Part shown: positions 16,303 through 17,230 of the stretch, piece after piece
Layout of the letters: each line of letters begins with the position of its first letter
Numbering within the stretch: position 1 is the first letter of the stretch
NCBI RefSeq assembly: GCF_030698125.1
Contig: NZ_JAUYNV010000047.1
Location: 1 to 64,000, forward strand
Direction: 5' to 3'
Origin: Methyloversatilis sp.
Lineage (GTDB): Bacteria; Pseudomonadota; Gammaproteobacteria; Burkholderiales; Rhodocyclaceae
Length of the DNA stretch: 64,000 bases
Position numbers and translations under genes: made by a program
The notes under the pieces: model-generated
What the model was told of the DNA's origin: nothing
The model's input: the letters and a program-made list of their open reading frames with translations, nothing else
Database searches by the model: none

Positions 16303-16313
16303 GGAGGTGATCC
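16303..16313 (+). promoter_or_regulatory. Eleven-base perfect Shine-Dalgarno sequence
   Basis: GGAGGTGATCC is fully complementary to the 3' end of bacterial 16S rRNA. It sits 8 bases (counted from GGAGG) before the ATG at 16316. This decides the upstream start of the PRC-barrel reading frame over the GTG at 16307. Confidence 0.75.
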
Positions 16314-16315
16314 AG

Positions 16316-16672
16316 ATGCAGCCGAGTCAACTTGTTGCCCTGCATGCCGCTCAGCCGCGCGAAGCGGAGGTGCCGGATTTCGACCCCGACCTGCTTCGCA
16401 GGCACCGCATCAGGGTCCGCCGGCTGATCCGCCGCATCAAGGCGGGCTACGGCGACCCGAAAGACGAGCCCTGCACCGGGCTCGACCACGCAGCACAGCA
16501 GCACCAACCAGAGGAGATGACCATGAGCTACGAGGACAGGGACAAGCACGGCATGTACAAGGGCGAGGGCGCTGCGCCCGGGCCGCTGATGCGCCACGGC
16601 CCCGGGCCGGGCCTGATGGGGGCTGACACACTGATGGGCAACGACGTGTTCAACAAGGACGGCGAAGACTGA
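16316..16672 (+). pseudogene. PRC-barrel protein gene, 5' fragment (interrupted)
   Basis: This frame encodes 118 residues ending ...LMGNDVFNKDGED followed by a TGA that belongs to the inserted palindromic element. In intact family members a sequence of this kind (GPGLMGADTLMGNDV...) is followed directly by the LGDI-EIMLDM stretch of the PRC barrel, which here lies 267 bases downstream in the same frame. Two translation starts are possible: the ATG at 16316 behind a perfect Shine-Dalgarno, and the ATG at 16523 (MSYEDRDKHGMYKG) behind GAGGAG. The second matches the usual family N-terminus. The fragment alone would hold only the first PRC strands and is probably not functional. Confidence 0.75.
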
Positions 16673-16941
16673 GGGTCTTTTGAGACTGAATCGTGGTCCG
16701 CGCGTGAATCCTGTTGCGTTCAGATCAAGACGGGCCGACGCCGGCTGACTGGCCGTCAGATCAGGAGGTCCAACGCAGAGCTGGACGCAACAGGACTCGC
16801 GCCCTCCGGGTTTGCAGCGTGCACGCCACGGACTGCGTTGCGCTCCTTGTCGGGACGGCCAGTCCCGACTTCGTCGCACGCCTTGCCCGTGGCGTGCGCG
16901 CTGCAAACGCGGACCACGATTCAGTCTCAAAAGACCCTCAG
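16669..16941. mobile_element. Palindromic non-coding element with 34-base terminal inverted repeats
   Basis: The ends 16669-16702 and 16908-16941 are perfect 34-base inverted repeats (outer motif CTGAGGGTCTTTTGAGACTG). Inside are nested pairs: 16709-16719 with 16785-16795 (TCCTGTTGCGT), 16810-16831 with 16887-16908 (21 of 22 matching), and 16849-16856 with 16862-16869 (GTCGGGAC, five-base loop). The whole would fold as an outer stem closing two hairpin arms. It has no coding capacity, so it is MITE-like or a structured repeat family member. It sits precisely inside the PRC-barrel gene. No clear target duplication is visible. Confidence 0.85.
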
Positions 16942-17230
16942 CGACATCCAGGAAATCATGCTCGACATGCGCAGCGGCAAGGTCAGTTACGCCGTGATGT
17001 CGTTCGGCGGATTTCTCGGCATCGGCGACAAGCTTTTTGCCGTGCCGTGGAACGCGCTGACGCTCGATACCGAGAACAAGCGCTTCACGCTCGACGTCGC
17101 CAAGGAGCGTCTCGAAGGCGCGCCGGGCTTCAATCAGGACTGCTGGCCCGACATGGCCGACCAGTCGTGGGCGCGGCAGATACACGATTACTACGGCACC
17201 CGTTCGTATTCGGACGATTCGAAGCTCTGA
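16937..17230 (+). pseudogene. PRC-barrel protein gene, 3' fragment
   Basis: From LSDIQEIMLDMRSGKV through FGGFLGIGDKLFAVPW to HDYYGTRSYSDD this is the bulk of a PRC-barrel domain as found in small stress-linked betaproteobacterial proteins. It lacks its own conserved start, because the N-terminal strands lie beyond the inserted element at 16669-16941. The frame is the same as the 5' fragment. An internal ATG at 16958 (MLDMRSG) could give a 90-residue truncated product, but its upstream sequence is a poor ribosome site. Confidence 0.75.

Follow-up and report, generated by a model that had tools for sequence, protein, structure and literature searches.

ERIC, Correia/NEMIS and similar MITEs are short, non-coding, TA-flanked elements with a strong hairpin fold in their transcripts. 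Integron attC sites carry R''/R' core boxes and are recognised by structure. According to the available text of PMC3189936, MITEPsy1 of Pseudomonas syringae is a non-coding, IS5-family-linked element of 100 bases with 18-base terminal repeats (GGAAGGTCTG..), which inserts at CTAG or YTAA with a 4-base duplication and has been seen to transpose. The TIMEs of Pseudomonas are described in the accessible part of PMC4133298 as Tn3-derived, non-coding elements of 262 bases with long inverted repeats and 38-base Tn3-type ends. MITEAba12 from Acinetobacter and relatives is an IS-derived MITE of 111-114 bases with 9-base duplications and a weak predicted fold (PMC6382973, available text). Rickettsia palindromic elements lie in frame inside genes, and about half of them keep the fused frame (PMC10969869, available text). 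The repeat R178 of Pseudomonas fluorescens is a 101-base intergenic repeat of three strains (PMC2718517, available text).

Here we describe an element of 265 bases (positions 16673 to 16937) in a 64,000-nucleotide stretch of DNA from Methyloversatilis sp., referred to as the window. It is very probably a MITE that was moved by an IS5-family transposase, carries a two-hairpin cassette in its interior and has inserted into, and truncated, a PRC-barrel gene. A MITE within a gene is in itself an ordinary finding, but the MITE involved is of an unusual kind. Its length is below the limit of about 500 bases for MITEs, and it lacks a transposase gene, as judged from the list of reading frames rather than from protein comparison. 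Measured against the available text on MITEPsy1, the window element is likewise non-coding, with terminal repeats and a link to the IS5 family, but it has another end sequence and a two-hairpin interior, none being described there for MITEPsy1 (PMC3189936). The TIMEs resemble it in size and in their long inverted repeats and differ by Tn3-type ends and 5-6-base duplications (PMC4133298, accessible part), whereas MITEAba12 shares the nature of an IS-derived MITE and differs in size, duplication and fold (PMC6382973, available text). ERIC and Correia/NEMIS have other sequences and sizes, and a head-to-head pair of ~100-base hairpins behind many types of ends is not mentioned for such MITEs in the available text of PMC10969869. 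The Rickettsia palindromic elements, compared by their description in that text, are like the window element palindromic and in frame within a gene; unlike the open host frame of the Rickettsia type, the window insertion, although in frame, has a TGA at the junction, in both species that carry it. R178 is about the size of one arm of our element and, likened by length and not by sequence, could be an earlier partial sighting of one arm (PMC2718517, available text). A full-text literature search of partial coverage, without supplements or ISfinder, returned no description of the two-hairpin family.

The edges of the element were set by alignment with other copies, which end in GGG..CCC, often beside TA. 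Its outer stem is formed by terminal inverted repeats at 16673-16701 and 16909-16937 (both plus strand), which are exact inverted repeats of each other; the terminal bases are common to other copies. Arm 1, a ~100-base hairpin in sense orientation (16702-16802, plus strand), and arm 2, the same design inverted (16810-16908, minus strand), are separated by the linker CCTCCGG, a mini-hairpin at 16803-16809. The covariance model R1 scores arm 1 with 59.9 bits (E 5.2e-11, own genome) and arm 2 with 59.1 bits (E 8.1e-11), both arms being members of its training set of 60 arms. A first-pass annotation of the window had reported perfect 34-base inverted repeats at 16669-16702 and 16908-16941 enclosing two further stems. 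The places are right, the mutual match is 100%, and fold and covariance model agree on long inner hairpins at 16702-16802 and 16810-16908. The RNA fold of 16650-16960 has an energy of -199.5 kcal/mol; shuffles average -119.2 (SD 5.2, z -15.3), and 0 of 100 are equally stable. The left flank CTGA (16669-16672, plus strand) contains the stop and would be the place of an altered TA duplication; the right flank TCAG (16938-16941, plus strand) is complementary to it. Given the edges from the family alignment, the outer four bases of both 34-base arms belong to the target or flank, as does the TGA. The element proper therefore does not begin with a stop codon, as had been stated; the TGA (16670-16672) precedes it but does stand at the junction. 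Similarly, the description of the element as devoid of an ORF holds only in part, since beyond this TGA the element can be read in the PRC frame to its end without a stop. Such openness carries little weight, because frames without a stop are frequent in the family, with 77 among the 582 frames of 97 copies. The longest start-to-stop frame wholly inside the element encodes 53 amino acids (16756-16917, minus strand, from the open-reading-frame list).

The interior consists of two head-to-head copies of one ~100-base hairpin, arm 2 being the inverted homologue of arm 1; owing to the opposed orientation of the arms, each strand of the element contains one sense hairpin. Named genomes were scanned with a pattern of both ends that allowed a body of 252-281 bases, which yielded at least 120 stretches, by title mostly from gamma- and beta-proteobacteria. 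Eighty of these were analysed, with body lengths of 263-268 in 65 loci and 277-280 in 15. With 17 chosen earlier matches (L124 left out) they make up 97 copies at 95 distinct places, two places being doubled by coordinates (L146 = L022, L184 = L121). An outer stem with two big arms is the fold of 94 of the 97 copies; this architecture appeared in 0 of 120 whole shuffles (40 elements) and in 12 of 120 interior-only shuffles with the ends kept. Two arms were obtained from 93 copies, among which the linker reads CCGAAGG in 23, CCTTCGG in 22 and CCTCCGG in 4. For the arm alignment 34 loci were chosen as a diverse set; a length of 90-106 bases applied to 62 of the 68 arms, and removal of the misaligned first arms of L177 and L126 left 60 arms from 33 loci. 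Paired cells amount to 86.8% in these arms, compared with 51.5% in shuffles and 37.0-42.8% with slid partners, and the covariation score is 0.870 versus 0.232 and 0.133-0.223, respectively. Two-sided changes occur at 33 of 33 consensus pairs, which is weak evidence because shuffles reach a mean of 30.3. Conservation is highest in the columns that form CAAGGC on one side, AAC plus a G opposite, and the apical G-C pair; the conserved internal-loop bases read CAAGGC/AACGCAG, and the stems are free in sequence but covary. The hairpin is not a known RNA family: Rfam 15 has no family over gathering score in the window, a search of 411 bases with E up to 10 gave three sub-threshold matches (best MIR1151, 32.6 of 90 bits), and the single match in 18 further loci was a SAH riboswitch away from the element.

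Among hairpin pairs, G-U combinations outnumber A-C mismatches by 118 to 35, beside 226 other mismatches. Counted by element, 29 have more G-U and 2 have more A-C (27 versus 5 without one very G-U-rich pair); the arms are related to each other, and sign tests on them are not fully independent. RNAalifold accepts G-U and not A-C in choosing pairs; once the positions that it skipped are included, the ratio becomes 121:56 and the elements divide 26 versus 2. The outer stems show 82:82, which is expected as the elements are not oriented, and they are thus no real control. Upkeep of a DNA palindrome alone should be strand-neutral, so that the G-U bias would imply selection on one folded strand. Such a strand, RNA or single-stranded DNA, seems to be selected, and we lean slightly towards RNA in read-through transcripts over single-stranded DNA. 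The hairpins may have been kept since the folded single strand matters to the element.

A rather doubtful but still conceivable alternative is that the hairpins are functionless and owe their perfect, covarying stems to repeated hairpin template switching and shared ancestry. Between the window element and a shortened form that occupies this site in a second species (G012), the outer arms show no difference in spite of a flanking dS of 0.22-0.28, and arms therefore seem to be homogenised; the kinship among arms, which weakens the sign tests, points the same way. However, bases of the internal loops are more conserved than paired bases (mean majority fraction 0.598 versus 0.489), the excess of G-U over A-C in 29 of 31 differing elements is something that a strand-neutral process would presumably not produce, and the layout persists with many different ends.

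The cassette is widespread. The arm covariance model matches 10 of 13 Methyloversatilis genomes at E ≤ 0.001 and all 14 genomes reached via the pattern loci, with 12 to 121 arms each among the matches listed at E ≤ 1e-4; Stutzerimonas nitrititolerans, a genome rich in copies, has 78. At E ≤ 1e-6 the hits comprise 82 of 229 genomes in a sample of the class and 64 of 200 in one of the phylum; the two samples overlap, and both include the own genome. The 80 pattern loci hold 170 arm matches at E ≤ 0.01, mostly head-to-head pairs by eye. Being trained on GGGTCTG-type elements, the model may miss distant cassettes, and stricter filters were used in scans of more than 40 genomes. Several draft contigs start within ~20 bases of an arm (G311 C43/C45/C74, G517 C4/C14, G129 C6/C45/C53 and similar), as if near-identical copies had broken the assemblies, so that copy numbers from drafts may be underestimates.

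Ends were surveyed in 39 two-arm copies from other contexts, namely 25 of 30 class loci, 11 loci from relatives and three extra places in pattern loci. Their outer stem usually has ~30 bases and 34 of the 39 are 261-282 bases long; L027 has 239, L298 287 and L320 325, and L303 and L309 run off their contigs. At least ten types of ends were distinguished by eye, including GGGTCTGTT/GGGCCTGTT/GGGGCTGTT, GGGAA.C.CTG, GGAACCTCTGATTAA and AGAGCCTATCC.TGAATAAATC, as well as AGGTCGTCCGAAT, AGGAGTGTCTGAATG, GAGCTCATCTCAAAAATAC, GAACCTATCTCAGAATCC, TAGTACTCTTTCAAGG and TAGTGTACTGCGCC; some of them are possibly distantly related. Elements with the ends CCTGAAAACCTCAGTTGATCG have one arm hairpin each and 235-246 bases (6 measured). 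These are L278, L281, L282 and L284-L288 of Methyloversatilis, and in L286 the element lies between two TTGAA, a hint that its duplication is a different one, of 5 bases. Cassette copies with ends like GAGGGACTCGTGACACGGATTC adjoin what is apparently the same gene (ATGAGCATCCAGGTAC..) in three species (L276 in G008, L277 in G010, L283 in G012), and some copies hence seem to be old and kept in place.

The proposal that the window element is a MITE-like insertion is supported by further copies, uninterrupted genes, flanking TA and an IS5-family insertion sequence with matching ends. Its own genome (G000; 4.2 Mb, 58 contigs) contains a second full copy with 86% identity (C24:5656-5922), a half copy (C40:110323-110470) and a further two-arm copy with a shortened first arm at about C25:18930-19100. 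The search for further copies in 101 genomes gave matches in 14: the own genome, 9 of the 12 others of Methyloversatilis, three of the family and one of the order. In plasmids and phages, blastn for distant matches returned none to the element. Of the 11 full-length copies in Methyloversatilis, 6 are flanked by TA at either end (L009-L012, L022, L032) and L021 and L061 at one end; TA is missing from both flanks of L002, L008 and the window copy (L007), where, as noted in the first pass, no target duplication is visible. In G022 and G084, TA flanks 6 of 7 full copies at either end, but most of these copies were retrieved with a pattern whose first two letters are TA. A single family end (TAGGG.CT.TTG.CA.TGAATCGCCC) is located directly before an ATG (ATGAGCC..) in three species, at position 1501 of L042 (G011) and L039 (G007) and at 533 of L097 (G012). 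The three positions look like one orthologous site, and this end is possibly a remnant serving as leader.

The family ends, GGGTCTGTTG.C.TTGAATCGC and its reverse complement, match in the form TA|GGGTCTGTTG.. the ends of an 855-base IS5-family insertion sequence. The window copy reads GGGTCTTTTGAG at its end and differs from the family in both arms alike (GGGTCTTTTGAGACTGAATCG). The insertion sequence is found on the Aeromonas veronii plasmid AP021941.1 with the ends TA|GGGTCTGTTGCCATTTCGCG..AAAACGGCAACAGACCC|TA, and its transposase is above the cut-offs of PF13340 and PF01609. Three plasmid copies of a related transposase were examined: the A. veronii copy has both ends and an annotated transposase, the second both ends without an annotated transposase, and the third one end only. 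Further hits in plasmids carry IS5-family annotations, in one case ISPa67-like. This insertion sequence is the likely source of transposase for elements of the window type. In the own genome, two adjoining pieces of an IS5-like transposase with 43-48% identity to the Aeromonas protein, apparently in different frames, are located at G000:C15:101155-101900; no other genome of the genus reached E 1e-20 in the search for a close IS5 transposase. A locus of G080 with a matching end encodes a 71-residue transposase fragment under the Pfam cut-offs. In the accessible part of PMC12457610, deletion primers for lpg2920-21 contain TAGGGTCTGTTGAC, and an end of the family may thus lie beside this locus.

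The host gene is a PRC-barrel gene. Its upstream part (16523-16672, plus strand; by frame and alignment with G011 and G003) comprises 49 codons followed by the TGA at 16670-16672, with ATG 16523 as the chosen start and a same-frame GTG at 16307 as a possible one. The downstream part (16943-17230, plus strand) has 95 codons and a stop and matches PF05239 PRC (E 1e-09, 38.7 bits, Pfam cut-off 21.2). The element had been placed between two halves of a PRC-barrel gene, and both halves do align with intact orthologues, but the upstream half has no Pfam PRC match. A search of 41 genomes with the downstream half found close orthologues (93-97%) in G003, G011 and G012, the identity to G011 and G003 being 97%. 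In these two species the site is empty, as the insertion hypothesis had led one to look for: the genes are uninterrupted, with GAC CTC GGC in G011 and GAC CTT GGC in G003, the sites reading GACCTCGGC and GACCTTGGC. The net insertion of 267 bases agrees with the reading that deletion rejoins the gene; the relatives, however, read GED-LG-DIQEIM and the window GED..LS-DIQEIM. The third species, G012, has a 49-base palindrome at exactly the same site, which equals the window element minus 216 interior bases, with GG at both ends of the missing segment. It shares the left flank and the TGA with the window, and its right flank is TCTG instead of TCAG. Both inserts, 267 and 51 bases, are divisible by three, and the downstream frame is open in both species. 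In the 300 bases that follow downstream, the sequence of G000 shows 24 differences from that of G012, 22 from that of G011 and 20 from that of G003. There, the interrupted genes are thus not mutual closest relatives, which leaves a single old insertion, retained only by these two lineages, unsupported, and the insertion has possibly spread by recombination.

We infer the movement of the element from its sequence. It would most likely be a non-autonomous DNA transposon whose terminal inverted repeats of ~30 bases are cut and joined in trans by an IS5-family transposase, an enzyme that would duplicate TA at CTAG-like sites. Entry into the PRC-barrel gene may have taken place at a site resembling CCTAGG. 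In the relatives the site reads CCTCGG or CCTTGG, and a target CCTAGG (codons CTA GGC) would fit their third-position variation; the net length of 267 equals 265 + 2, which fits a TA duplication. In the window the flanks CTGA|GGG..CCC|TCAG are fully complementary. Each of the two pairs beside the TA step would have been altered in both of its members, an effect to be expected of hairpin template switching; this process may have made the arms and adjoining flanks complementary, hidden the TA duplication and created the TGA stop. The two hairpins would then have been deleted in G012. That several changes have to be assumed for the flanks and that no duplication is visible speaks against this otherwise best explanation, as does the outcome of the transposase search in the genus, which yielded no close relative.

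The G012 locus also lends itself to a reverse order of events, to which we assign a low probability: a short palindrome came first and the cassette, a second mobile unit that targets palindromes, was later inserted in its centre. Palindromes of 49-62 bases do occur at a number of loci in Methyloversatilis, the cassette sits in outer stems of many different sequences, and at the PRC site G012 has nothing but the palindrome. On the other hand, the GG at both ends of the 216 bases missing from G012 is what a deletion would leave, and other short forms (L036, L046) keep pieces of an arm or inner stem at their centre by eye.

The intact frame downstream of the TGA raises the question of a full-length PRC protein that is still made because the element is removed or bypassed at the RNA or translation level. 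The first-pass annotation had mentioned removal or bypass at the RNA level as a distant alternative, and we consider removal or bypass very improbable. It would agree with insert lengths divisible by three, with the junction TGA as sole stop before a frame open beyond it in both species, and with dN/dS values well below 1 between the interrupted genes of G000 and G012, 0.132 downstream (8 nonsynonymous, 14 synonymous) and 0.119 upstream (3 nonsynonymous, 6 synonymous). Yet these values are 3 to 5 times as high as those between G011 and G003, whose genes are uninterrupted (0.028 and 0.041), frames without a stop are frequent throughout the family, and the insert of G012 differs in size with the same stop. 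No Rfam intron or other family exceeds its gathering score, and the best tRNA-Sec candidate in the own genome has 45.3 bits with a cut-off of 47, in a search that gave sub-cut-off matches in 14 of 14 control genomes and matches over cut-off in 5. Removal or bypass is therefore without support, as is selenocysteine readthrough of the TGA. A resident regulatory RNA that belongs to the PRC-barrel locus and controls the gene, to which the very stable fold, the shortened form at the same site in G012 and the constraint on the downstream half (dN/dS 0.132) might point, is rejected as hardly credible, because two species have an intact gene without the element, copies are dispersed over the own and other genomes and the ends match a transposable element. 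The PRC-barrel gene is probably truncated and recently broken; its barrel half is possibly expressed on its own.

For the preferred reading, a MITE moved by an IS5-family transposase, the interior calls for an explanation of its own. The same design behind many element ends suggests that the hairpins do something for the element. In the simplest account of these sequences, the folded strand would help the element to persist, via transposition, tolerated transcripts or a bound host factor. We give an even chance to the more specific view that the hairpin pair is a functional structured nucleic acid which binds a host factor and is carried across the Pseudomonadota by mobile elements of many transposases. 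The cassette would then have been kept across this phylum while the surrounding terminal repeats changed. It would work on one hairpin strand, as RNA or single-stranded DNA, and would probably bind a widespread host factor through its CAAGGC/AACGCAG internal loops, with the head-to-head duplication giving independence of orientation.

A frequent view takes MITEs for what deletion has left of a single transposon, with an interior that shows little conservation. In the two-hairpin family the inside is the conserved part and the ends are variable. The PRC-barrel locus offers a natural comparison within one genus, with a long form, a hairpin-less form and an empty site. Should the hairpins bind a host factor, then a structured element able to alter transcripts wherever it has landed would be present in about a third of the sampled proteobacterial genomes, and the family would be a test case for the success of such elements.
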